Assembly: GCF_016612505.1 (NCBI RefSeq)
Contig: NZ_JAENRR010000045.1
Location: forward strand, 1 to 41,699
Length of the DNA stretch: 41,699 bases
Direction: 5' to 3'
From: Carboxylicivirga marina
GTDB lineage: Bacteria > Bacteroidota > Bacteroidia > Bacteroidales > Marinilabiliaceae
In this document: in pieces, positions 16,489 to 40,759 of the stretch
Position numbering within the stretch: the stretch's first letter is position 1
Layout of the letters: each line of letters opens with the position of its first letter
The notes under the pieces: generated by a model
What the model was told of the DNA's origin: nothing
Seen by the model: the letters and a program-made list of their open reading frames with translations, nothing else
The model's database searches: none
Made by a program: the position numbers and the translations under genes

Positions 16489-17784
16489 ATGAAAATATAT
16501 AAACATATAATTTTATACCTGCTTGCAGCCATTTTGCTTGGTGCAGGTTGTAACGATGGGTATGATGCAGGAGAATTTGAAGTAGATGAAAGTTTGCAAC
16601 CAAAGGCCAGAACAGATGCACCAGATGCACCTTCAGCAGTACTTGCTTCTTACGATGAGTATTGCGATAAAGTGGTGGTATCATGGGAAGCAACCATACG
16701 CACCTCAGCCTACGACCTATATAAGAATGGTGTGGTGTTTGCACAAGGCCTTACAGATACCTTTTATGTAGATAATGATGCCTTGTTGGTTGATACTGAG
16801 TACAGCGTTTATGCAAAAAATCACAATGGCGATTCGGAAAGTGCCGGAATGACTGTGGGCCGAATGGCAGGAGTACCTCCAACACCTGTTAACTTTAATG
16901 CAACAAGTGGAGCATATGATAGTAAAGTGGAGCTGTCGTGGGATCCTGTAGATTACGCATTGTACTATGTAGTGAAACGTGAGGGTGTTGTACTTAACGA
17001 CAGAGTGGTAGGAACTACCTTTTTGGATAACGTAAATGCACCTACTACCGAAACAGAGTACAGTATGTACGCTGTTGGTAATTGTGGAGAATCAGCACCT
17101 GTTGTTACAACCGGGTATGCAGACCCTTTAATTGCCTTCCGTTTTCCTGTTAACGAGACTTTTGATGGTTATAGTGTGGGCTATGATCTGTCTTCAACGG
17201 ATATGTTTCAGCATTTTTTCCACTGGGATATGACCGGAGGTCCGGGTAGTTTTAAAGTGTCGGATGATACTTCGGTGAGTGGTGCCAAATGTGCAAAGGC
17301 TGTGTATAATGATGTTACGGGAAATGCAAGTGCTGAGGGTAATATAGAGATTATTTGCAAAAACTTTGATTTGTTAGAAGGACAACGTTACCGAATAAGT
17401 TATCGACTAAAATGTACAGTAAAAACGCAAATGTTTCTTGCGGTAGATAAAGATGGTAGTGGTAATATAAATAAGGCAGATGGGGAGGAAAGTTATCTGT
17501 TACCAACATGGATAAACCCCAAAGGCAATGGTTTAGGTATTCAGATGGCAGCAAAACCCGAGTGGACGGAAGTTTCTTATGAATTCCCGGCTACCGGAGT
17601 AAATACCAAAGCGAATTTTGATCCTGATCCTGTTGTCGAAGGATGGGTGCCGGCTACAATACAGGCAGGCCAAACGAACCCTTTGATTCAGATTAAATAC
17701 TATTTACCAACAGGTGCGGGGCCTAATGGTGAGTATCCACCGATCTATATTGATGATTTAATGATCGAACTCATCTCGGAATAA
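16489..17784 (+). CDS. Surface glycan-binding lipoprotein with FN3-like domains
   Basis: This 431-residue protein occupies the position where PULs place a SusE/F-type or SGBP lipoprotein. The lipobox is LGAGC with Cys21. Residues ~42-125 and ~128-205 look like two fibronectin type III or Ig-like repeats (KVVVSWEATIRTSAYDLYKNG and KVELSWDPVDYALYYVVKREG are clearly related). Residues ~210-431 form a jelly-roll-like region (NETFDGYSVGYDL near its start, PPIYIDDLMIEL at its end), probably the carbohydrate-binding part. It also contains a calcium-loop-like DKDGSGNINKADG. It has no catalytic motif. It would sit on the cell surface and hand polymer to the SusCD complexes. The exact ligand cannot be read from sequence. 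A strong hairpin follows 15 bases after its stop. Confidence 0.82.
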   Translation: MKIYKHIILYLLAAILLGAGCNDGYDAGEFEVDESLQPKARTDAPDAPSAVLASYDEYCDKVVVSWEATIRTSAYDLYKNGVVFAQGLTDTFYVDNDALLVDTEYSVYAKNHNGDSESAGMTVGRMAGVPPTPVNFNATSGAYDSKVELSWDPVDYALYYVVKREGVVLNDRVVGTTFLDNVNAPTTETEYSMYAVGNCGESAPVVTTGYADPLIAFRFPVNETFDGYSVGYDLSSTDMFQHFFHWDMTGGPGSFKVSDDTSVSGAKCAKAVYNDVTGNASAEGNIEIICKNFDLLEGQRYRISYRLKCTVKTQMFLAVDKDGSGNINKADGEESYLLPTWINPKGNGLGIQMAAKPEWTEVSYEFPATGVNTKANFDPDPVVEGWVPATIQAGQTNPLIQIKYYLPTGAGPNGEYPPIYIDDLMIELISE

Positions 17785-19655: not shown

Positions 19656-20804
19656 ATGAGTGCAATACAACATTTCAAGATTATGAGCATACAGAAGTTG
19701 TTGCTATACGCCTTTTGTATTATTGGTGTATTTTCATGTAAAAATTATTCATCATCCGATAAGGTGAATGACTTGAAGTGTCTTACATATAAGAACTTGA
19801 GTTTTGATACCCTGTCAACAGCGGTAAAAGATAATTTCTTTAAGCATTTAACAAGTGCACATGTGCTTGCAGAACCTGGATATTATGTTTGGGGGGTGTC
19901 GGTTATTAAATGGCAAGGAGAATACCATGCCTATTATTCAAGATGGAATAAAAAACATGGGCATAAAGGATGGATGACCAACTGTGAAATTGCGCATGCT
20001 GTAGCTTCAAAACCAGAAGGTCCCTTTGAATTTGTCAATGTTGTATTGCATGATAGAAAAAACAGTGGATGGGATATTAATAATGCGCATAACCCTTATG
20101 CTATCGTAGCAGATGGGAAAATATGTCTCTATTATATTTCCAACGATATAGGACCTCTAATTAAAGACGATAATGTTGAAATTAATTACCCTGATAGTAC
20201 TTGGTTTGAAGACAACAGGATACAGGTAAGAAATAGTCAATGCATTGGTGTGGCCATTGCTGATAAGCCAGCAGGACCATTTGTTCGATCTGAGAAACCG
20301 GTCGTAAAACCGGATAATGTTAAATTTAAGAACATTGCCGTTAACCCGGCAGTTGTCTACCGCAACAATTCATACACCATGATCATGAAGGGTGACGATG
20401 TGAGTAAAGAAAAGTGGTTTAGAATTCAGTTAGTAGGTAAAGCTTCTGCTCCCGACGGGGCGTTTGAATTTTCATCAAAACCAGTTTACGACAAGGCACA
20501 AACCGAGGATGCCTGCTTGTGGTTTGACGAAAAACTCAATAAGTATTACATGGTGTGTCATGTCATGCGAAAAAGGGCACTGGCACTTTTTAATTCGGAA
20601 AATGGTAACGATTGGCAACTGGATGAAAGGGATGTTTTTATGAAAAAGGAGTTTACGCTGTCGGATGGCACAGTATGGAAACCTGAACGTGTGGAACGTC
20701 CATTTGTGTTAACGGATGAAAAAGGCCAACCCATTATGCTCTATGTGGCTGTTGCCGATAAAAATGTGAATGGTAATATTGCGATTCACATAAATCTGGA
20801 GTAG
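19656..20804 (+). CDS. GH43/GH117-like five-bladed propeller glycosidase
   Basis: The 382-residue protein has a lipoprotein signal (LLLYAFCIIGVFSC). Its body has the repeated pattern of five-bladed propeller glycosidases: WGVSVIKWQGEYHAYYSRW, then SKPEGPFEFVNVVLHD, NNAHNPYAIVADGKICLYYIS, ADKPAGPFVRSEKPVV, VNPAVVYRNNSYTMIMKG and RVERPFVLTDEKGQP. These resemble families GH43 and GH117 and related uncharacterised enzymes, which cleave furanosides, anhydro-galactose or other non-reducing-end sugars. I cannot assign the exact family or substrate. Two starts are possible. The ATG at 19656 follows a GGAGG (19648-19652) placed unusually close, while the ATG at 19683 gives a shorter, more typical signal peptide. 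A further catalytic assignment needs structural comparison. Confidence 0.65.
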   Translation: MSAIQHFKIMSIQKLLLYAFCIIGVFSCKNYSSSDKVNDLKCLTYKNLSFDTLSTAVKDNFFKHLTSAHVLAEPGYYVWGVSVIKWQGEYHAYYSRWNKKHGHKGWMTNCEIAHAVASKPEGPFEFVNVVLHDRKNSGWDINNAHNPYAIVADGKICLYYISNDIGPLIKDDNVEINYPDSTWFEDNRIQVRNSQCIGVAIADKPAGPFVRSEKPVVKPDNVKFKNIAVNPAVVYRNNSYTMIMKGDDVSKEKWFRIQLVGKASAPDGAFEFSSKPVYDKAQTEDACLWFDEKLNKYYMVCHVMRKRALALFNSENGNDWQLDERDVFMKKEFTLSDGTVWKPERVERPFVLTDEKGQPIMLYVAVADKNVNGNIAIHINLE

Positions 20805-22648: not shown

Positions 22649-22792
22649 ATAACAAATGTTAACAATGTGTATAATTCATAAGGATTTCGAACGCTATATC
22701 CCGCATCAATTTTGGGTGGTAATTTGATTGGCTTGAATTTCGCAATCCCATACGAAAACACACACTAACCGTTGGATTAAATTGTAAAAGTG

Positions 22793-24502
22793 ATGAAAAT
22801 AATGAATTTAACATATAGTCTGCTTACAGCATTAACGCTATTTGCATTTACATACAATGCAAAAGGGCAAATAACAGTTGATTGTGACTTGAATCAATCA
22901 TCGCACACCATAAGTGAGTACTTGGTTGGTACCAATTCCATTTATAACTTTATGGGTGAATCATTCTGGGATACCACTGAAATCAAATCTGCTTTAATGG
23001 ATATGAATTGTGGTTTATTGCGTTATCCCGGGGGTGGTCCCACGAGTTATTATCATTGGAATGACATGAATGGCCAGGGATGGTGGGATAACTGGGATCC
23101 GAATTACGACCATAGTAAAGATATGCCTGCGGAAACATTTCTGGATGTAGATGAATACATCGCGCTTTGTAATGAAATTGGCACTATCCCATTGATTGGA
23201 ATAAATATGAGTTCCGGCCTACATTACAATAGGGTGCAGGATGGGATTGATGAAGCCAAGGCATTGGTGCAATACTGCGTTGATAATAATTACAATGTAC
23301 AACGCTATTATCTGGATAATGAACCCTATAATGACCATAGTGGTTTTACGATGACCTGGCAACAATATGCAGAACAGGTAAAATTGTATGCACCGGCCAT
23401 CAGAGCTATTAATCCCGATATTGAGATTATTATCAACTGGAGAGATAACATTAGAAGAACTGATGTTTGGACGCTATTAGAAGAGGTAGGAGATCTTATT
23501 GATGTATATGATGCGCACTGGTACTGGAACTGGGCTGAAGCTAGTTTTGATAACTGGGCTACACAGTTGCCAATGGATCCTGATCCGAATTCAGGATCAA
23601 GACAATCATATAAACAAGAAATCGAGTTTTTTAACACAAAAGCCGCATCGCTAGGGCTAAACCACCTGAAATTAGCTTCCTTAGAATGGAATATTGGACC
23701 CAGTGTAGATATAGCGTCAGTCCCTACTATTTACCAAACAGCTGTAATGCAGTCTGAAATGTTACTTCAGTTTATGGATGGAGGCCTTGATATGGCAGCC
23801 CTATGGGCTATTTATTGGCCGGATAATTACAATCCTGCAAAAGCAAGAAAAGCCAATTCCCGTTACCTGGTGCACCCCATCGATGATTTTAAGGTTAGCG
23901 ATAACGTTGAAATGTTCAAATTGATGTCTGCTGCCAGTGGGAAGACAAAATACAAAACGACTTCAAACAATAATCTCCTCTATCCGCTTGCAGTTTCAAA
24001 CCCAGAAAAATCAGAGACCTTTGTGTATTTTCTGTACAAGGGGCAAACAGAGATGCCAATAGCCGTTTCAGCACCTACAAGTGATTCGTATGAACTGCAT
24101 ATATTCTCGGCTGACGATGTGGATATGAATAACGGAAGTGTCAAAACAGCACCGCTTACCTATAATGAGACACTTAATAAATATGAATTTAACATGCCGG
24201 CTTATTCATTGGCCAGACTTCAGATTGGAGGGATTGCAAGCGATGTTCCGGCAAATGAATCGAATAATGCCTTTATGGAAATTTATCCAAATCCGGTATC
24301 CGATGTCCTTAACTTAAATTGTAATAGTAAGCAGCATCCCTTTAGTGTTCAAATAAATTCATTACAAGGGGAGCAGGTGTATTTTCAGGAGCATTCGATT
24401 AACGACAATCAAGTGGATGTTTCAGAATTGAACGAAGGTATATACTTTATTACCACAATTCAACACGGAAAATATTCGACAAAAAAGTTTGTAAAAATTT
24501 AG
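22793..24502 (+). CDS. Clan GH-A (GH51-like) glycoside hydrolase with T9SS tail
   Basis: The ATG at 22793 is preferred over a GTG one codon upstream. Signal peptide: to about residue 23 (LFAFTYNAKGQ). The barrel (~25-370) has GLLRYPGGGPTSYYHW, resembling the RxPGG motif of GH51 and relatives. The predicted acid/base is Glu177 in YYLDNEPYN and the predicted nucleophile Glu298 in ASLEWNIGP, the standard strand-4 and strand-7 positions of clan GH-A. A small beta domain (~380-475) follows, then a type A T9SS sorting domain (~490-569: MEIYPNPVSDVLNL, GIYFITT, KKFVKI). It is the only glycosidase here with a T9SS tail, so it is probably the enzyme secreted beyond the cell to attack the polymer. Substrate unknown: arabinofuranosidase, agarase-like or endo-galactosidase-like activity are all possible. 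Confidence 0.75.
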   Translation: MKIMNLTYSLLTALTLFAFTYNAKGQITVDCDLNQSSHTISEYLVGTNSIYNFMGESFWDTTEIKSALMDMNCGLLRYPGGGPTSYYHWNDMNGQGWWDNWDPNYDHSKDMPAETFLDVDEYIALCNEIGTIPLIGINMSSGLHYNRVQDGIDEAKALVQYCVDNNYNVQRYYLDNEPYNDHSGFTMTWQQYAEQVKLYAPAIRAINPDIEIIINWRDNIRRTDVWTLLEEVGDLIDVYDAHWYWNWAEASFDNWATQLPMDPDPNSGSRQSYKQEIEFFNTKAASLGLNHLKLASLEWNIGPSVDIASVPTIYQTAVMQSEMLLQFMDGGLDMAALWAIYWPDNYNPAKARKANSRYLVHPIDDFKVSDNVEMFKLMSAASGKTKYKTTSNNNLLYPLAVSNPEKSETFVYFLYKGQTEMPIAVSAPTSDSYELHIFSADDVDMNNGSVKTAPLTYNETLNKYEFNMPAYSLARLQIGGIASDVPANESNNAFMEIYPNPVSDVLNLNCNSKQHPFSVQINSLQGEQVYFQEHSINDNQVDVSELNEGIYFITTIQHGKYSTKKFVKI

Positions 24503-31252: not shown

Positions 31253-31423
31253 GACAATATATTCACAATTCTTTATTGTGATGAAACTATACAGATTATT
31301 AATGCTCTCATGACGATGGGGGTAGGCGATGATAATTCGTGGGTTGATATGCCTAATGAGCAGTATCTTATAACAGTTAAGGACTGCTTGTTCATCGTTG
31401 CCATTGAACCGATTAATAAATAA
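31253..31423 (+). pseudogene. C-terminal relic of a GH2 beta-galactosidase
   Basis: The frame ending at the TAA at 31421-31423 reads MGVGDDNSWVDMPNEQYLI and then ends VAIEPINK. It aligns with the last residues of the intact GH2 at 24605 ([20 protein letters not shown], then LSIEPVF). MGVGxDNSW is the conserved ending of LacZ-type enzymes. Homology is clear only from about 31310; upstream of 31253 the frame is closed by a TAG. About 1000 residues are missing. The nucleotide sequence differs from the intact copy, so this is the remains of a distinct older paralogue and not a recent duplication. Confidence 0.75.
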
Positions 31424-31448
31424 TATTGAAGATCAAAAAACTATATTC

Positions 31449-32996
31449 ATGAAGAAAACCATTATCTTTTTTATTGTTGCGCTCTTGTTCATAGGGTGTT
31501 CTAGAAGAGTTCAGAAGGCTGAGAAACCTAATATTCTGTTTATCATGTCTGATGATCATACTTCACAAGCATGGGGGATTTACGGAGGTGTATTGAAGGA
31601 CTATGTTCACGCACCTAATATCAATCGTTTGGCCGATGAGGGTGTAGTCCTGGATAATTGTTTTTGTACAAATTCCATATGTGTGCCCAGCAGGGCAACG
31701 ATCTTAACCGGTCAGTATTCGCACCGTAATGGCGTTTATATGTTGCGCGACAAGGCCAGACAGGATAGTTTAAATATTGCCAAGGTACTAAATGAAGCCG
31801 GTTATCAGACTGCTATTGTTGGTAAATGGCATCTGAAAACACAACCTCAGGGCTTTGATTATTTCAATGTACTACCTGATCAGGGAGTATATCATAATCC
31901 TGTTTTAAAATCAAAAGAAAATTGGCAGGATGGCTACAAAGGCGGTAAGGTATATGAAGGCTTTTCAACCGATGTGATAACGGACCTGACCATCGACTGG
32001 CTGGATAAAAGAGATGAGTCTAAACCATTTATGATGATGTGTCACTTTAAGGCCACACATGAGCCTTTTGATTTCCCTGATCGCTTTAAAAATCTTTACG
32101 ATGATGTTGAGATACCAGAACCGGCTTCCTTGTATGATTTTGACCCGAGGGTGAGCGGACGAACTTTTATAGGGCAATCTCTGGAAAAACTGGCCTGGCG
32201 ATGGGAAACGGCTTCAAAAGATCCGGATAAGTGGTGGTGTAAATACCCTGAATTGCCTTTCTCAACAGAAAATTTGGATTCCGTCGCTGCCCGAAAAAAG
32301 ACCTACCAAAAACTGGTAAAAGACTTTATGCGCTGCGGTGCAACAATCGACGATAATATTGGACGCCTACTTGATTACCTAAAAGCACAAGGGCTGGATG
32401 AAAACACCGTTGTGATATATACTTCGGATCAGGGTTATTTCCTGGGTGAACATGGCTTTTTTGATAAGCGTATGATTTTGGAAGAGTCACTGCGTATGCC
32501 TTTTGTGATAAAGTACCCTCAGGAGATTGAAGGAGGTAAACGAATTCAGGATATCATTCTGAATATTGACTTCGCAGCTCTTTTTGCCGATTATGCGGGA
32601 GTAAAAAGTGTTGAATCGTTTCAAGGGAAAAGTTTCAGAGATAATCTGAAAGGAAATACCAAGGATGGCTGGCGAAAGTCGATGTATTACCGTTACTGGG
32701 AGCATTCGCCCGATCGTCCGGCACATATCGGTATTAGAAATGAACAGCATAAGTTGATTTTCTTTTATGGTCGGGCAATGGATGAAGATTCTGATGTTCA
32801 ATCGACTCTGCCAGCATGGGAGTTCTATGACTTGGTGAATGATCCGAATGAATTGCATAATGCCTATGCCGATGAGTCATATGCTGATGTTATTAGGGAG
32901 ATGAAGGAAGAGTTGAAGAAACAAAGAAGAGAATTGGGAGATGATGACAGGGAACGCACTTGGATAAAAGATATTATTGATCAACACTTAAACTAA
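31449..32996 (+). CDS. S1-type sulfatase lipoprotein, GlcNAc-6-sulfatase-like
   Basis: The ATG at 31449 is chosen since it opens a lipoprotein signal (MKKTIIFFIVALLFIGC, Cys17); the longer frame would add 17 residues overlapping the GH2 relic. The protein has 515 residues. Motifs: ILFIMSDDHTSQAWGIYGG, CVPSR with Cys78 as the formylglycine site, VGKWHLK, MMCHFKATHEPF and YTSDQGYFLGEHGFFDKR with EESLRMPFVI. The last block is the signature of the group containing bacterial N-acetylglucosamine-6-O-sulfatases and related iduronate/choline-type enzymes. This fits a HexNAc-containing substrate but is not proof of specificity. The next gene starts 6 bases downstream. Confidence 0.92.
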   Translation: MKKTIIFFIVALLFIGCSRRVQKAEKPNILFIMSDDHTSQAWGIYGGVLKDYVHAPNINRLADEGVVLDNCFCTNSICVPSRATILTGQYSHRNGVYMLRDKARQDSLNIAKVLNEAGYQTAIVGKWHLKTQPQGFDYFNVLPDQGVYHNPVLKSKENWQDGYKGGKVYEGFSTDVITDLTIDWLDKRDESKPFMMMCHFKATHEPFDFPDRFKNLYDDVEIPEPASLYDFDPRVSGRTFIGQSLEKLAWRWETASKDPDKWWCKYPELPFSTENLDSVAARKKTYQKLVKDFMRCGATIDDNIGRLLDYLKAQGLDENTVVIYTSDQGYFLGEHGFFDKRMILEESLRMPFVIKYPQEIEGGKRIQDIILNIDFAALFADYAGVKSVESFQGKSFRDNLKGNTKDGWRKSMYYRYWEHSPDRPAHIGIRNEQHKLIFFYGRAMDEDSDVQSTLPAWEFYDLVNDPNELHNAYADESYADVIREMKEELKKQRRELGDDDRERTWIKDIIDQHLN

Positions 32997-33002
32997 ATAA
33001 AG

Positions 33003-36000
33003 ATGTTTGTGATAAGAATTGTTTGTGCATTGTTGATTTGCAGCATTTTCATGGCATGCAACCAAAGCACCGAACAGGAGCCGACGCCAAATGTTGTGAT
33101 CTTCTTTTTGGATGATTCCGGGTGGAGTGATTTCTCGCCCTTTGGCGAAGAGCACCATGTAACACCTAATGTGCAAAAGTTAGCTGATGAAGGCTGTACT
33201 TTTACCAATTTTTATGTGCCTCAGGCGATTTGTTCTGCATCAAGGGCTGCTTTAATGACAGGTTGTTATCCCGGGCGTACAAAAGTATTCGGAGCTCATG
33301 GTCCAGGAGAAGTCGGGTTGGATCCAAGCTACACAACCATGGGAGAGATATTTCAGAAAGGGGGTTATAAAACAGGTGTTTTTGGAAAATGGCATATTGG
33401 CGATACACCTGCTACACGGCCTGCAAACCGGGGGTTTGACGAATCGGCTGGTTTGATGTATTCCAATGACATGTGGGAGCATCATGCAACGGCTCCTAAA
33501 TATTGGGGGCAATGGCCATTGCAATATTGGAAAAACAATGAGGTGGTGATTGATAAGATTACCCCTGAGCATCAGGAGCAATTAACGCAGATGGCGACTA
33601 AAGAGTCCTTGTCCTTTATTAAGAAACATAAGGATCAGCCTTTCTTCTTGTATGTACCATACTCAATGCCACATGTACCTTTGTATTGCAGTAACGAATT
33701 TAAAGGAAAATCAGGTACAGGCTTATATGGAGATGTATTAATGGAAATAGATTGGTCTGTTGGGAAAATATTAACACAGATCAAAGAAAGCGGACTGGAG
33801 GATAATACCATTGTTGTTTTTTCATCCGATAATGGCCCCTGGGCTGTATATGGCGAACATGCTGGTTTTACTCCTTTCAGAGAAGCTAAAGCAACCTCTT
33901 TCGATGGAGGTGTCAAGTCAGCTTGCATTATTAAATATCCTGGACAGATTAAGCAAGGCAGTACTAATGCTGGTTTATTCTGTTCCATTGATTTGTTACC
34001 TAGTCTGTCGGCAATAACAGGTGTAGGTTTACCACCTGATTTAATTGATGGTAAAGATGTATCGCCATTAATTTTAGGTGATTCATCCTTTAAAAATCCG
34101 CATAAATATTACGCTATCAGCAGGGGTAATAACCTTGAAAGTATTATTAGTAGTGACGGAAAGTGGAAATTGCACTTGCCACATAAATATCATACTGTCA
34201 TTGAAGGTGGTAAAGACGGAATGGCTGGTAAACAGGAAAATAAAGAGATAGCTTTGTCTCTTTTTAAATTAGTAGATGATCCAACAGAATCTGAAAATGT
34301 GATAAATGAATATCCTGAGATCGCTGAGGAATTAAAGGGATTTGGAGAAATCCATTATTCGAATTTTTTTAGTAATAAAGAGGAAAAAGCACTTGACTTA
34401 GTAGAAAATTTGAGCTTAAAGGGGTATGACGATGAACACGAAGAATATCCTTCTTTAGTGACAGATGGAAATGGTCAAATGTGGACCTTTGCGCTACGAA
34501 GAATAAGCTATCCTGAAAATACAGAATTAATATCTGCATATCATTTTGATGGAAAAAAGTGGCAGGATGTAGATCCTATTACGACATCGACTGACAAATA
34601 TGAAGTGCCTGTAGCTGCATGTGCCAAGAATGGAAAACCTATTGTTGCTTGGGCTGAAATAAAAGGGCAGGATTGGATCATAAACGCCTCACGGATGACT
34701 ACTGATGGTTTTAGTACGCCACATGCTTTCCCTGTATCAAGTGGCAGATCAATCAATCCGGAATTATTGGCTTTAGAAGGAAGCAGAAACTGGATTGCCT
34801 GGGAAAATCTGCACAATGGTATATTTAAAATTTATATCAGCAAATTTGAAAACGGACAATGGTCCGAGCCTGTAATCATAGATAAAGGGAATAACAGTTG
34901 TTTTGACCCAAGTATGGCACAGGCTAAAAACGGTGATCTTTATGTGGCTTATGGTCTGACAAATGGCTTTCATCAAGACATAGAAATGACTATTCTGGAC
35001 GGTGAATCACTTCAAGTAAAAAAAGTTGTTCCTGTTGCTATTGGAGGTGGCCATAAGAATCGGGTAAATATAAATTCAAGACCAGCACTGGCTTTTGATG
35101 CATGGGACAATTTATGGATTAGCTACGAAAATAACAGAAATGCCAGTCGTTTTGAAGATGGTGATAATTACACAGGCGATCGCTGTTGTGCCATTTTATC
35201 CTATCAAAACGGCAAGATTGTAGAAGTGCAGAATAAGGATAAATGGTTGTTTTCGGGAGTGAATGATCATATTCCGACCTTTTTTAAAGATAATAATGGT
35301 AACCTGTTTTTAGCCACGCACTGTGGTGGTGATTTTTCAAATAATGGTTGGAAATATCGCTTGTCATGGTTGGATCCGGGAAAAGGCTGGCAGGAGCCTG
35401 TTACTTTGTTTGATACAAAAATAAAGGGTCTGATGAATGCGCCCGCCTTGGCTTTTGATGGCAAGGGTGATTTGTGGCTGGCCACAATAAACGAAAAAAC
35501 CATTAAAAACAATCCAAATGAGCATTCATGTGATATTCAGCATGCGCGATTAACGGAGTTGAATGTGATGCGGTTTGTTGCACCAAATTTATCAGGCAAG
35601 TATAATACTGTTTCATTTACCAAAACAACGGTTGAGGAGTTTACTCCGGATGAGAAGAGCATCGGAACTTATAGCGGGCACCCTAGAGTTGAAAGACGAA
35701 AAATGACCATTAATGGTGAAGCCTATACTTTATTATACGGAAATCTCCATGAGCATTCAAACAGCTCCAATTGCTGGCCTGCAGGAACTGATGGCACCTT
35801 GCATGATGATTATCGCTTTGGTATGTATTCTGAGGCTTACGACTTCTTTGGCATGACGGATCATGATGCAAGCACAAGCGAAATATATTGGCGCAGAAAC
35901 CTGAGGATGGCAGACTTTTATAATGAGTCGGATAATTTCGTTGCCATTCCGGCTATTGAATGGGCGCTTCAGTCAGATCGTGCACTTGATGATATTCAGC

Positions 36001-36794
36001 ATGGTGCCGGACATTACAATATAATTTTTGCCAGCACAACCGATGCCCAAAAATATACGCGCAATAAGCATGAATTATATAGTGCATTTACGCCTGAATC
36101 AAGCCCAAGTCCCAGGTTGTGGGCAATGTTAGATAAAAATGATATTGAGTGCGTAACAATTCCTCATCATGTGGCCGATGAAGTGCATCCGCTTGACTGG
36201 AATGTTTACAATCCGAAATATGTTCCCATTGTAGATATCTTTCAGTGCAGGGGTAACCATGAGTACAGAGGCTGTCCAAGAGAAAACAATGTAAGCCGAC
36301 ATACCACAACCAAATATGACAGAGCTTTTGTAGATTATGCATTGAGAGATAAAAAATACAAAATGGGATTTATTGCCAGTGGCGATCACAATAACATGGG
36401 TGTTGGTTTGGCGGGACTTTGGGTTAAAGAAGTGAGTCGTAAAGGCATTATTGAAGCACTGCGAAGCAGGCGTACTTTTGCCACTACGGGCGATAAGATT
36501 TTTATTGATTTGAAAATGAATGAAACTATAATGGGGGAGACCTGCAATATTGATCAGGAGCCAAAACTGACAATAGAAGTTGTTGGTCAATATCCATTAG
36601 AAAAAGTTGAAATACTTCGAAACAGTAAGGTGATCCATGTTTTTGATATTGAGGATGGTGGGGCAGCCTTTAAGGGCGTTTACACAGATAAGGATTACAA
36701 AGACGAGAAGGAGGTATTGTATTACTATATCCGTGCTACTCAAAAAAATAACGAACTGGCATGGTCAAGCCCTATCTGGGTAGAAAAGAAATAA
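33003..36794 (+). CDS. Three-part fusion: S1 sulfatase, beta-propeller, PHP/DUF3604-like hydrolase
   Basis: One uninterrupted 1263-residue frame. Residues 1-19 are a lipoprotein signal (SIFMAC). Residues ~28-455 are a sulfatase: VVIFFLDDSGWSDF, CSASR with Cys77 as the formylglycine site, FGKWHIGD, FSSDNGPW and FDGGVKSACIIKYPG. Residues ~475-840 hold six or seven blade-like repeats (YPSLVTDGNGQMWTFA, PSMAQAKNGDLYVAYG, RPALAFDAWDNLWISY, APALAFDGKGDLWLAT), suggesting a beta-propeller. Residues ~905-1263 resemble DUF3604/PHP hydrolases: YGNLHEHSNSS (His916, His918), GMTDHD (Asp953, His954), IPHH (1055-1056) and SGDHNN (Asp1128, His1129) would form the metal site. The propeller may bind glycan, and the PHP part may be a phosphoesterase or other metal hydrolase acting on the same substrate. 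It is tightly packed between a sulfatase (6-base gap) and a GH20 (26-base gap). Confidence 0.85.
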   Translation: MFVIRIVCALLICSIFMACNQSTEQEPTPNVVIFFLDDSGWSDFSPFGEEHHVTPNVQKLADEGCTFTNFYVPQAICSASRAALMTGCYPGRTKVFGAHGPGEVGLDPSYTTMGEIFQKGGYKTGVFGKWHIGDTPATRPANRGFDESAGLMYSNDMWEHHATAPKYWGQWPLQYWKNNEVVIDKITPEHQEQLTQMATKESLSFIKKHKDQPFFLYVPYSMPHVPLYCSNEFKGKSGTGLYGDVLMEIDWSVGKILTQIKESGLEDNTIVVFSSDNGPWAVYGEHAGFTPFREAKATSFDGGVKSACIIKYPGQIKQGSTNAGLFCSIDLLPSLSAITGVGLPPDLIDGKDVSPLILGDSSFKNPHKYYAISRGNNLESIISSDGKWKLHLPHKYHTVIEGGKDGMAGKQENKEIALSLFKLVDDPTESENVINEYPEIAEELKGFGEIHYSNFFSNKEEKALDLVENLSLKGYDDEHEEYPSLVTDGNGQMWTFALRRISYPENTELISAYHFDGKKWQDVDPITTSTDKYEVPVAACAKNGKPIVAWAEIKGQDWIINASRMTTDGFSTPHAFPVSSGRSINPELLALEGSRNWIAWENLHNGIFKIYISKFENGQWSEPVIIDKGNNSCFDPSMAQAKNGDLYVAYGLTNGFHQDIEMTILDGESLQVKKVVPVAIGGGHKNRVNINSRPALAFDAWDNLWISYENNRNASRFEDGDNYTGDRCCAILSYQNGKIVEVQNKDKWLFSGVNDHIPTFFKDNNGNLFLATHCGGDFSNNGWKYRLSWLDPGKGWQEPVTLFDTKIKGLMNAPALAFDGKGDLWLATINEKTIKNNPNEHSCDIQHARLTELNVMRFVAPNLSGKYNTVSFTKTTVEEFTPDEKSIGTYSGHPRVERRKMTINGEAYTLLYGNLHEHSNSSNCWPAGTDGTLHDDYRFGMYSEAYDFFGMTDHDASTSEIYWRRNLRMADFYNESDNFVAIPAIEWALQSDRALDDIQHGAGHYNIIFASTTDAQKYTRNKHELYSAFTPESSPSPRLWAMLDKNDIECVTIPHHVADEVHPLDWNVYNPKYVPIVDIFQCRGNHEYRGCPRENNVSRHTTTKYDRAFVDYALRDKKYKMGFIASGDHNNMGVGLAGLWVKEVSRKGIIEALRSRRTFATTGDKIFIDLKMNETIMGETCNIDQEPKLTIEVVGQYPLEKVEILRNSKVIHVFDIEDGGAAFKGVYTDKDYKDEKEVLYYYIRATQKNNELAWSSPIWVEKK

Positions 36795-36820
36795 AAGTGT
36801 TTTTTTTAAATAGAGAAAGA

Positions 36821-39151
36821 ATGATATTACATACATACATGAGGTGCATTGTTTTAATGGTTGTGCTACAGTTCTATCAAAATGGTTTAGCACAAGCTCC
36901 CATTAATGTTATACCAATGCCCAACCAGGTACACTATCAGGAAGGTAGTTTTGATATTAATGCGAGAACAATAGTTGTAGGTGATGATAAGGTGTTAATC
37001 AAGCAATGCCAGCAATTAATTAAAGCTGCAACAGGCTTTAACCTGAATACTGCTGAGACCTCAGATCTGGATAACAATGTAATTAAGCTGGAGCTAAATG
37101 ATGCTTCAGTTGGTGCATCAAATGAGGCGTATTCTCTGTCCATTAATAGTAATGGTGTTTTTATTCGTGGTGGTGTACATGGTATATTCAATGGTTTGCA
37201 AACACTAAGGCAGTTATTTATTCCTGCCAGTGGTGTTCATCGTAGCTCATCCACCTTGGCTTACCTTAGTATTGAAGATGAGCCTCGTTTTTCATGGAGA
37301 GGATTAATGTTGGATGTATCTCGTCATTTTTATCCGGTTGAAGATATCAAGCGCTTTATCGATTACCTGGCCTTTCACAAAATGAATGTGTTTCACTGGC
37401 ACCTGGTGGATAATCAGGGTTGGCGCATCGAAATAAAGAAATACCCCCGCTTAACAGAAGTGGGAGCATGGCGTCCAGATCGGGAGCATGAACATTGGCG
37501 CACAAGAACATGGCCTTCTGATGATGAAGCTAAAAGCTATGGGGGTTATTATACACAGGATGAGATAAGGGATATAGTGGCCTATGCAAAAGAACGATTT
37601 GTTACCGTTGTGCCTGAAATTGAAATGCCGGCTCATGTGTATAGCGCCCTGGCGGCCTATCCCGAATACTCCTGCTTTAACAATGACATTAAAGTACCAG
37701 CAGGTGCCAATTGGCCTAACTATGAAATTTATTGTGCCGGTAAGGAATCAACCTTTGGGTTTTTAGAAGATGTACTTCATGAAGTCATGGATCTGTTTCC
37801 ATCTGAATACATTCATATTGGTGGTGACGAAGCAGATTATGCCCAATGGGAAAAGTGCCCCGACTGTCAGGCGCGAATAAAGTCTGAAAACTTGAGTGAT
37901 GAAAAAGAACTGCAAAGCTATTTTATTAAGCGCATCGATCAGTTCTTAGGTGAAAATAACCGCAAGTTGCTTGGTTGGGATGAAATACTCTATGGTGGTT
38001 TGGCAAAGAACGCAACGGTCATGTATTGGCGAGGATGGCACAAGGATGCACCGAAGGAAGCTACTTCAACTGGCAATAACATGATCATGACCACCAATAA
38101 CTATTGTTATTTTAATTATTATCAGGGTGATCGTATGCACGAACCCTTGGCACGAAAATTTAACATTCCTATTTCAAAGGTTTATAACTGGCAGGTTATT
38201 CCTGAAGGGCTAAACGAAGAAGAGCAACAAAGAATTTTGGGTGCTCAGGCTAACTTGTGGGGTGAATATATTCAGCATTCTAAAATAGCAGAAGAAATGG
38301 TTTTTCCCCGCTTAGCGGCTCTTTCAGAAAGTCTTTGGACAATGCCGGATAATAAAAACTGGGATTCATTTTGCCAAAGGGTGCCTCATCTATTCCGCTG
38401 GTATGATGTTATGGATCTGAATTACTCTAAAGCGATATTCTTGCCTAAGGTAAATGCAAATACCGACTCTCTTGATAATAACCAGATTGTTGTAGAATTG
38501 CATAAAGAAAGCAGTATTGGCAAGATACATTACGAATTAAATGGAGAAACGCCAACAAGCTCTTCTCCGGTATATACGATTCCGCTTAAGCTAACATCTA
38601 CTACAGCCCTGAAAGCCGCCACTTTTATAGATGATGACATGGCAGGAGACATTACTGAGCGCTTGTTTGATTTTCATAAAGCCTACCGGGCACAAATTGT
38701 TCTAAAAGAAAGCTATCATAAAGATTACACAGCAGGAGGTGATATGGGTTTGCTGGATGGTTTGCAAGGGACAAAAAATATGAAGGATGGGCATTGGCAA
38801 GGTTTTTATATGAACGATTTTTCTGCAGTAATTGATCTGAATAAAAAACAAGAACTCACACAGGCAAGTATCACTTGTTTGCAATCAGCTACGAGTGGTA
38901 TTTATCTTCCCAAAGAGATGAGTCTTGAAATTTCAATGAATGGGAAGCAGTGGAAGAGTATTGAAACAATAAGTCATGATATATCTTCAAAATATAACGG
39001 TGATGTAATCTATAAATTCAGCTTTGACAATTTGAACGCAAAAGCCCGATACATTCGTATCTCTGCAGTTAATTTAAAACAAGCACCTGTGAGTGCCCTG
39101 GAAAAACGTTTAAATGCATGGATATTTATTGATGAAATAAAAGTGTGGTAG
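36821..39151 (+). CDS. GH20 beta-N-acetylhexosaminidase with C-terminal accessory domains
   Basis: The ATG at 36821 is preferred; an upstream frame would overlap the previous gene, and the ATG at 36839 is also possible. Signal peptide ends near GLAQA, with no lipobox, so it is probably periplasmic. From 36821 (776 aa): GH20b domain (~27-150), catalytic barrel with WRGLMLDVSRHFYPVEDIK, WHLVDNQGWRIEIKKYP, PEIEMPAHVYSAL and the catalytic pair Asp336-Glu337 in HIGGDEADYAQW. After ~540 come a chitobiase C-terminal Ig-like domain (YELNGETPTSSSPVY) and a discoidin-like (F5/8 type C) domain containing MGLLDGLQGTKNMKDGHWQGF and ARYIRISAVNL. It has the long multi-domain form seen in many PUL GH20 enzymes. 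It should cut terminal beta-HexNAc. Confidence 0.94.
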   Translation: MILHTYMRCIVLMVVLQFYQNGLAQAPINVIPMPNQVHYQEGSFDINARTIVVGDDKVLIKQCQQLIKAATGFNLNTAETSDLDNNVIKLELNDASVGASNEAYSLSINSNGVFIRGGVHGIFNGLQTLRQLFIPASGVHRSSSTLAYLSIEDEPRFSWRGLMLDVSRHFYPVEDIKRFIDYLAFHKMNVFHWHLVDNQGWRIEIKKYPRLTEVGAWRPDREHEHWRTRTWPSDDEAKSYGGYYTQDEIRDIVAYAKERFVTVVPEIEMPAHVYSALAAYPEYSCFNNDIKVPAGANWPNYEIYCAGKESTFGFLEDVLHEVMDLFPSEYIHIGGDEADYAQWEKCPDCQARIKSENLSDEKELQSYFIKRIDQFLGENNRKLLGWDEILYGGLAKNATVMYWRGWHKDAPKEATSTGNNMIMTTNNYCYFNYYQGDRMHEPLARKFNIPISKVYNWQVIPEGLNEEEQQRILGAQANLWGEYIQHSKIAEEMVFPRLAALSESLWTMPDNKNWDSFCQRVPHLFRWYDVMDLNYSKAIFLPKVNANTDSLDNNQIVVELHKESSIGKIHYELNGETPTSSSPVYTIPLKLTSTTALKAATFIDDDMAGDITERLFDFHKAYRAQIVLKESYHKDYTAGGDMGLLDGLQGTKNMKDGHWQGFYMNDFSAVIDLNKKQELTQASITCLQSATSGIYLPKEMSLEISMNGKQWKSIETISHDISSKYNGDVIYKFSFDNLNAKARYIRISAVNLKQAPVSALEKRLNAWIFIDEIKVW

Positions 39152-39394: not shown

Positions 39395-40759
39395 ATGAAG
39401 AGAAATTACATATTATTAATATCACTAATTTTGGTATTGCCAATCTATGTTCTCGGACAAAAAGAAGAAAATAATTCAAATGATAATGTTTTGAATTTTC
39501 TGAATTTAAAATTTGGAATGTTTATTCATTATAACATGGGCACCTATCAAGCAGAGCAATGGGCATATCCTTTTCATGACCCAAAAGATTTTAGACCATC
39601 ACAATTAGATTGTAATCAATGGGCGCAGGCAGCAAAATCATCGGGTATGCAATATGCCGTTTTTACCACCAAGCACCACGATGGTTTTTGCCTTTGGGAT
39701 ACAAAAGTTACCAATTACGACATTGCTTCCGCAGATAAAAAGTATAAGAACCTTGATATAGTAAAAGAATACACTGGTGCATTTCGTAATGCAGGAATTA
39801 AAGTTGGATTATATTTTTCGGTATGGGACAGACATCATGGAATTCAGCATGGTAACATGAACCAGATAAATATTAATTTTACCAAAGAACAATTAACTGA
39901 GTTGCTTACCAATTATGGCGATATAGCATGTATTGTTATCGATGGATGGGGGTCTAAATGGGGAGATGGTCCTGATTTTGAGGAACTACCATATAAAACT
40001 TTGGCAGAACATATACATTCAATTCAGCCCAACTGTTTGGTAATAAATCATAGTTGTCGTCCCGATTTAAATTACACACAAATAGTTCACTACGAGGCAA
40101 CGCATGGCCAGCATTGTCCGTTCGATAATACTATTCCATCACAGCAGGGACCGACACTTCAGTCAACTTGGTTTTGGGAAAAAGGTTATGAAAATCAAGA
40201 ATTAAAATCAGTTGATGAGGTTATTAAGGAACTGAATTTTGCAAATTCTCATTACTCAAATTACCTATTAAATGCTGCACCAAATGATAAAGGATTGATG
40301 GATGAAAACGTTTTAGTGCGGTTAAAAGAAATTGGTGATGCTATAACGCTTTCAGCACCATTAAAAAAATTGCCTGAAATTAAGCCAGTACACCTAGGAG
40401 TAGAGGTAATGGCATCTAGTTCATCGGGTAAAGAGTTCGGAGCTAATAATATTATTGATGCCGATTTGTTTACACGATGGCAGTATGCCGAGGGCGACGA
40501 GGAGAGATGGATAGAATTGGATTTTAAGTCACCAAAAACGTTTAACCGCGTTATATGTGGCGAATGGAAAAGAGCAGTTCAAGCCTTTAAAATTGAAGCT
40601 TTTATTAACGGAGAATGGAAATTACTGGTAACAGGAGAAAAGATTGGACACAATTTCAATGCTAGTTTTGAGACTATTTCTGCTCAAAAATATAGACTAA
40701 CAATTCTTAAAGCATCCAAACTTCCATATATTGCTGAATTAACTTTTGTAAAGTATTAA
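39395..40759 (+). CDS. GH29 alpha-L-fucosidase with discoidin-like domain
   Basis: The 454-residue protein has a signal peptide (MKRNYILLISLILVLPIYVLG). The GH29 barrel is clear: FLNLKFGMFIHYNMGTYQ, QYAVFTTKHHDGFCLWDTK, KVGLYFSVWDRHHG and Asp183 in IVIDGWGSKWG as the likely nucleophile. Then come LNAAPNDKGLMDENVLVRLKEIG and a C-terminal F5/8 type C domain (~325-454: FGANNIIDADLFTRWQ, WIELDFKSPKTFNRV). GH29 cleaves terminal alpha-L-fucose; a shape with this short barrel and a discoidin domain is typical of linkage-restricted (subfamily B-like) enzymes, though I am not sure of the assignment. The gene looks more AT-rich than the neighbouring GH20. It is the last intact gene in the window. Confidence 0.92.
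   Translation: MKRNYILLISLILVLPIYVLGQKEENNSNDNVLNFLNLKFGMFIHYNMGTYQAEQWAYPFHDPKDFRPSQLDCNQWAQAAKSSGMQYAVFTTKHHDGFCLWDTKVTNYDIASADKKYKNLDIVKEYTGAFRNAGIKVGLYFSVWDRHHGIQHGNMNQININFTKEQLTELLTNYGDIACIVIDGWGSKWGDGPDFEELPYKTLAEHIHSIQPNCLVINHSCRPDLNYTQIVHYEATHGQHCPFDNTIPSQQGPTLQSTWFWEKGYENQELKSVDEVIKELNFANSHYSNYLLNAAPNDKGLMDENVLVRLKEIGDAITLSAPLKKLPEIKPVHLGVEVMASSSSGKEFGANNIIDADLFTRWQYAEGDEERWIELDFKSPKTFNRVICGEWKRAVQAFKIEAFINGEWKLLVTGEKIGHNFNASFETISAQKYRLTILKASKLPYIAELTFVKY

Follow-up and report, generated by a model that had tools for sequence, protein, structure and literature searches.

A sulfatase joined to a propeller-bearing PHP-type domain in Carboxylicivirga marina, a candidate bifunctional glycan-trimming enzyme

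Sulfatases of the S1 type fused to GH10, GH32 and GH29 domains have already been described (PMC6388578). In the CehA/McbA family of metallohydrolases, CehA acts on carbamates and esters, and H313, H315, H453 and H495 play an important part when the enzyme of strain CFD-1 hydrolyses carbofuran (PMC8292978). Here we describe a gene that joins a sulfatase to propeller-like repeats, a PHP-type domain resembling CehA/McbA and an Ig-like tail, at positions 33003..36794 of a 41,699-nucleotide stretch of Carboxylicivirga marina DNA (contig NZ_JAENRR010000045.1; the whole stretch is hereafter called the window). We consider it reasonably probable that this lineage-specific fusion is a membrane-anchored bifunctional glycan-trimming enzyme in which the PHP domain hydrolyses a second, non-sulfate ester.

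The gene, which like all features located below lies on the + strand, is an uninterrupted open frame of 1263 residues that proved stop-free on translation; its layout was derived from the translation, a residue check and Pfam. It begins with a lipoprotein-like signal peptide read from the sequence (residues 1-19, 33003..33059, FMAC with Cys19). A preliminary description made from the DNA letters had claimed a single lipoprotein with a complete sulfatase, blade-like repeats and a PHP/DUF3604-like domain. The length, the intact frame and the signal agree with that description, and all the residues it named (C77 of CSASR, H916, H918, D953, H954, H1055, H1056, D1128 and H1129) carry the numbers it gave them. 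The sulfatase is indeed complete: the S1-type domain extends from residue 20 to ~462 (33060..34388), with Pfam Sulfatase (PF00884) matching residues 29-341 over profile positions 1-301 (E 3.8e-50; 171.3 bits against a cut-off of 25). The formylglycine modification motif follows the rule C/S-x-P/A-x-R, to which C77-S-A-S-R (33231..33245) conforms.

The position of the join was deduced from proteins that carry either half separately. Standalone sulfatases of Marinifilum, Carboxylicivirga and Puteibacter (L002-L004) share 66-68% identity with the sulfatase half, and their three C-terminal ends align with residues 458-462 of the fusion. Residues 461-1263 were matched full-length in 2 of the 294 other genomes of the window's order, with identities of 67% (G233) and 62% (G085) over ~800 residues. 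These two propeller-PHP proteins, of 824 and 831 residues, each possess their own signal-like N-terminus, and the alignment with the fusion begins about six residues past its Cys. The fusion looks genuine, since the standalone sulfatases stop at the join and the standalone propeller-PHP proteins start there, after a signal of their own. To judge from where the G233 and G085 alignments begin, it carries the second protein in its mature form, appended to a sulfatase that is itself complete.

The sulfatase relatives gave the same picture from the other side. A whole-protein scan with one genome per species yielded 88 relatives, the best 80 of which were taken; a propeller or PHP part was encoded at none of these 80 loci (E 1e-5). 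The best sulfatase frame was uncut by the locus end in 75 of the 80, and only one of these (L029, 718 residues) exceeded 600 residues, its extra length being N-terminal.

The second half is sparsely distributed. Fifteen further genomes of the order gave weak partial matches only (E 5.8e-10 or worse), and the propeller-PHP part was found neither in the 13 other genomes of the genus nor in the other 79 relatives searched (E 1e-15). In the host genome the PHP part occurs just once. A sample of the class (395 genomes, E 1e-20) matched only in the host genome and in one PHP-only genome, while the phylum to which Pontiella sulfatireligans belongs gave distant relatives in 27 of 240 genomes (E 1e-10), and that of a Phycisphaerales genome in 27 of 294 (E 1e-20). 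The fetched loci supplied 77 non-redundant frames containing a PHP part; a propeller was detectable in 35 of them but not in the other 42, which include four viral ones. The window's protein is the only one of the 77 with a sulfatase in the same frame, and no other fused copy was found among them. The earlier statement that no characterised enzyme with this order is known likewise held in the literature searched, where, as in the sampled genomes, no fusion of a sulfatase with a propeller-PHP part was found, although absence from print is not thereby proved. Two local clusters of three PHP-containing frames were seen, one in the Phycisphaerales phylum sample (L199, G1137 contig 25; all with a propeller) and one in the window's class (L117, G320 contig 20; all without).

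Mobile elements were covered as well. The propeller-PHP query confirmed no relative on viral contigs, and a PHP profile search recovered four of them (IMG/VR L155, L156, L157 and L158), a further scan giving the same four. These contigs carry PHP relatives with an Ig-like tail, in which the metal motifs look partly degenerate, and in L155-L157 a Gln replaces the first His of H-x-H. PHROGs returned no match for the PHP domain or for two viral relatives. Among plasmids, 56 records had a match, none covering 80% of the query among the matches listed (10 of 56).

The PHP-type domain occupies residues ~905-1165 (35715..36497), as delimited by a structural profile match, NF038032 and DUF3604. Nine of its residues, which include the candidate metal site, are invariant in all 35 propeller-bearing frames, the fusion among them: H916 and H918 (35748..35756), which we take to be metal ligands, D953 with H954 (35859..35864), the candidate ligand E986 (35958..35960), H1004 (36012..36014), H1055 (36165..36167), E1087 (36261..36263) and D1128. 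The metal-site positions stay identical down to 23% identity in a nine-member alignment. In all 35 frames, H1129 directly follows D1128 (36384..36389), giving a last motif D-H that is a contracted version of the usual D-x-H. By comparison, the 42 propeller-less frames gave 43 aligned rows, of which 39 read D-x-H (D-D-H or D-H-H in 10 of the 39); the four other rows are the degenerate viral L158, the partly aligned L111 (D-H) and L098, and L201 (E-S-H). The preliminary list of ligands thus largely survives, with seven of the eight listed His and Asp residues either invariant in the 35 frames or part of the D-H motif; H1056 drops out, replaced by Q or T in 10 of 13 propeller-bearing rows displayed, and E986, H1004 and E1087, absent from that list, are equally conserved. 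On the strength of the invariant metal-site residues and of D-H where other relatives have D-x-H, the propeller-bearing proteins seem to be a family of their own, its metal site apparently intact and its last motif contracted. Its boundary is only as wide as the searches, because the members were gathered using the window's protein as query. A propeller-less subgroup (e.g. L085-L090, L108, L112 and L136) has Pro or Gly at the position of D953 and Asp at that of H1004, which suggests another metal arrangement.

As for family assignment, the description as PHP/DUF3604-like stood in its first part, through the conserved metal-site residues and a structural match, and gave way in its second to a CehA/McbA-like character. 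The 20-member family profile (A1) matches the structure 3e38 in PDB (E 7.6e-7); a PDB search with the single PHP sequence gave no PHP match and only glutathione-transferase matches (E 0.45 or worse). The NCBIfam model CehA/McbA (NF038032) is matched by 18 of the 20 members of the family alignment (best 4.5e-28), and in the window's protein its best stretch is 1134-1261, the whole protein reaching 55.3 bits, below the cut-off of 80. DUF3604 (PF12228) scores 33.8 bits in the whole protein against a cut-off of 20.4, with a best stretch of only 1130-1168. The domain search of the second half that had been proposed therefore does place PF12228 over its cut-off (42 bits for the PHP domain alone), but over brief segments of a profile 591 positions long, and leaves CehA/McbA at 60.5 against 80. 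A canonical DUF3604 protein was rejected, since the two DUF3604 proteins of the same genome score 811 and 802 bits against 34-42 here; these proteins lie at G000:C121:28391-30172 and G000:C152:315-2102 and cover profile positions 2-591 and 3-591.

Between the two putative catalytic parts, residues ~463-880 (34389..35642), delimited by their repeats, by Reg_prop and by the standalone homologues, contain the blade-like region that had been proposed. Seven similar segments start at residues 482, 535, 585, 635, 693, 757 and 813, spaced by 50-64 residues. A repeat pattern, written post hoc after the repeats had been seen, found 6 of the 7, while 2000 shuffles averaged 0.22 and yielded at most 3. 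Reg_prop passes its Pfam cut-off here (36.8 vs 20.4 bits), while GH43 (28.4 vs 32.2) and BNR_2 (23.4 vs 31.4) remain below theirs; GH43 is over its cut-off (36.0 bits) in the propeller of the G233 homologue. No glycosidase domain rises above the Pfam cut-off in residues 461-1263, and a PDB search with the propeller region gave no match at E 10. From the repeats, a seven-bladed propeller is likely.

Structure models were of low confidence. A single-sequence AlphaFold2 model of 803 residues had a predicted local distance difference test (pLDDT) score of 34.8, with the propeller part below 50 throughout. A 374-residue model from 5 rows (m233e2387169f), in which alone the viral relatives, given their partly degenerate motifs, served as rows, reached 50.9 and was most confident in the C-terminal beta domain. 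Foldseek with this model returned 1253 matches, none of them reaching E 0.001, and mostly beta-sandwich domains among the matches listed (50 of 1253). This model and Foldseek point to a C-terminal Ig/FN3-like beta domain (36498..36791) that ends in AWSSPIW.

The gene is embedded in a locus for glycan use. Pfam identified a hybrid two-component regulator, two SusC/SusD pairs, two GH20 enzymes, a GH2, a GH29 and four further sulfatases, making five Pfam sulfatase domains in the window. Sulfatase D (31398..32996), identified from the list of open reading frames, Pfam and homologue comparison, ends 6 bases ahead of the fusion gene. Downstream, a GH20 beta-hexosaminidase (36761..39151; same list and Pfam) overlaps it by 34 bases, its true start perhaps lying later, and is followed by a GH29 alpha-L-fucosidase (39395..40759; Pfam). 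In Puteibacter a homologue of sulfatase D (70% identity) precedes the standalone sulfatase, in the same order as in the window. Elsewhere in the window, a 382-residue protein (19656-20804) has a weak GH43 match, and stretches resembling it (29-34% identity) occur in the Marinifilum and Carboxylicivirga standalone-sulfatase loci. Two further proteins of the glycan locus, of 431 (16489-17784) and 570 residues (22790-24502), have no recognised functional domain, the second ending in a type IX secretion sorting tail. Across the host genome, sulfatase matches number at least 71 among the 119 first-look candidates.

Sulfatases also accompany some standalone relatives. In G233, two sulfatase genes lie directly upstream of the propeller-PHP gene, which overlaps the upstream one by 4 bases; besides the second sulfatase, which shares 42% identity with sulfatase D, the locus includes a GH29, a GH31 and a GH20-like stretch that is 42% identical to the second GH20 of the window. 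We sampled the surroundings (up to 20 kb, some ending at contig ends) of 28 propeller-bearing genes other than the window's own. A sulfatase lay within 300 bases of 6 of the 28 (~0.94 expected, P 2e-4) and directly upstream on the same strand of 4 (~0.36 expected, P 4e-4), the expectation being derived from sulfatase candidates per genome with one gene per 1050 bases assumed and the clustering of glycan genes ignored. This association is modest, and suggestive only.

We infer from these data that both domains would be catalytic and share a substrate, and the bond type, lipid anchoring and location are likewise part of that inference. The joining of a sulfatase to a probably metal-dependent hydrolase that is elsewhere a separate protein suggests that two different groups are removed from one sugar chain, here probably a sulfated, fucosylated and N-acetylhexosamine (HexNAc)-containing glycan. 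In the proposed mechanism, the first domain, a formylglycine sulfatase, would remove sulfate; the propeller could hold the glycan or act as a spacer between the two active sites; and the second, a CehA/McbA-like PHP metallohydrolase, would cut a second, non-sulfate ester on the same glycan, after which, both groups being gone, the neighbouring GH20, GH2 and GH29 enzymes could act. The second ester would most likely be of acyl or carbamate type, a phosphoester being less likely. Ester chemistry is favoured over phosphate by the activity of CehA on carbamates and esters (PMC8292978), together with a similar spacing of His residues: 140 between H313 and H453 of CehA and 139 between H916 and H1055 here, numbers compared without an alignment.

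Several results weigh against this bifunctional enzyme. We know of no activity for any propeller-PHP protein. The fused copy is single, in one genome, and could be a recent neutral event. The PHP domain alone scores 60.5 bits, under the CehA/McbA cut-off, and carries D-H instead of D-x-H; both structure models (pLDDT 34.8 and 50.9) are too poor to show a metal pocket, and no PHP protein figures among the Foldseek matches listed (50 of 1253) for the low-confidence second model. The 18-kb stretch around the G085 homologue has no sulfatase, 22 of the 28 propeller-bearing genes have none within 300 bases, and 15 of the 28 none in the fetched stretch. Propeller-less relatives show no significant difference (2 of 16 against 6 of 28 with a near sulfatase, Fisher p 0.69), and a sulfatase neighbourhood is not established as a hallmark of the propeller family. 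Lastly, the review cited above for CehA (PMC8292978) treats it as an esterase and ascribes to esterases a catalytic triad rather than a metal site.

The main competing view concerns the bond cut by the second domain. The preliminary description proposed a two-step enzyme on a doubly modified glycan, for example bearing sulfate together with phosphate or another ester; its bifunctional part is supported by the sequence comparisons and its phosphate part weakly so, phosphate being only one option given that CehA cleaves carbamates and esters. On this view the second domain would act as a phosphoesterase or phosphodiesterase, and a doubly charged glycan would lose to the fusion both sulfate and either phosphate or a group linked through a phosphodiester. 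The PHP superfamily consists mostly of phosphoesterases, and the best PDB profile match, 3e38, is titled 'predicted PHP-like metal-dependent phosphoesterase'. The G233 locus also has a cytidylyltransferase-like gene and an APH-type phosphotransferase gene, which sugar salvage would explain equally well. However, the namesakes of the closest named family, CehA/McbA, are carbamate and ester hydrolases (PMC8292978), and among the 17 other proteins of the window compared with Pfam the only phosphoesterase matches are cross-matches of sulfatases to PF01663; we regard phosphate as doubtful. If the PHP domain were instead a second, metal-dependent sulfate-ester hydrolase, for a sulfate beyond reach of the formylglycine enzyme, the sulfatases close to 6 of the 28 propeller-bearing genes would find a reason, as would the immediately upstream, same-strand position of 4 of these, and in metallohydrolases the hydrolysis of sulfate and phosphate esters often overlaps. 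This is unlikely, as we know of no PHP-type sulfatase and the window already holds five sulfatase domains.

Two further alternatives were weighed. Propellers and Ig-like domains often bind ligands, and the close standalone sulfatases presumably function without the second half, so that this half might be a passive, non-catalytic module for glycan binding or for anchoring of the sulfatase. The identity of the nine metal-site positions in 35 of 35 propeller-bearing frames, down to 23% identity, argues against such a role, as does the fact that 34 of the 35 have no sulfatase to support, and we find it very unlikely. An assembly or annotation artefact joining two genes would account for one fused example in 77 frames and for the absence of the propeller-PHP part from the 13 other genomes of the genus. 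It was nevertheless rejected, and its probability must be put close to nil, because translation runs through the join unbroken and because the second half does not have the signal-like N-terminus of its standalone relatives, which a frameshift or a missed stop would not delete.

A bifunctional sulfatase and de-esterifying hydrolase would have consequences beyond this locus. Sulfated glycans can bear further groups whose removal enzymes are unknown, and the propeller-PHP family, found in a few genomes of the window's order and in phyla that include Pontiella and a Phycisphaerales genome, would then be a new class of glycan-decoration hydrolase, for which the fusion would reveal the sulfatase that partners it. 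We advance only tentatively the wider proposal that these proteins form an unnamed, D-H-marked family of exported enzymes that remove esters from glycans in concert with sulfatases, the fusion being a Rosetta-stone case that couples desulfation to removal of a second ester on one glycan. The propeller and the replacement of D-x-H by D-H provide a sequence marker by which the family is easily delimited, and the fusion allows a straightforward two-domain assay.

Compared with known systems, the protein shares with CehA/McbA a C-terminal stretch that matches the model, the His-x-His pair and a similar distance to the next important His, but differs in scoring below the curated cut-off, in its contracted D-H, in the propeller placed in front, in its glycan locus and in the fused sulfatase. 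3e38, a solved two-domain structure of PHP fold, is matched by the family profile over the first metal motifs and over the D-motif with the ensuing Arg-containing stretch, whereas its 343 residues leave no room for a propeller and a sulfatase and its aligned part reads D-x-H. The likeness to DUF3604 is confined to short stretches over the gathering cut-off, at 34-42 bits against 811 and 802 for the full-length members of the host genome. The standalone sulfatases L002-L004 resemble the sulfatase half (66-68% identity), Puteibacter also having the upstream sulfatase D, but have no propeller-PHP half; conversely, the G233 and G085 proteins correspond to the propeller-PHP half (67% and 62% over ~800 residues), with their own signal-like N-terminus and no sulfatase domain. 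In the sulfatase-glycosidase fusions (PMC6388578), a sulfatase is likewise joined to another glycan-acting domain, but the partner there is a glycosidase, while here it is an uncharacterised PHP-type domain with a propeller. Sulfatase fusions as such are known, and we rate the propeller-PHP family with its D-H motif as the more interesting part.

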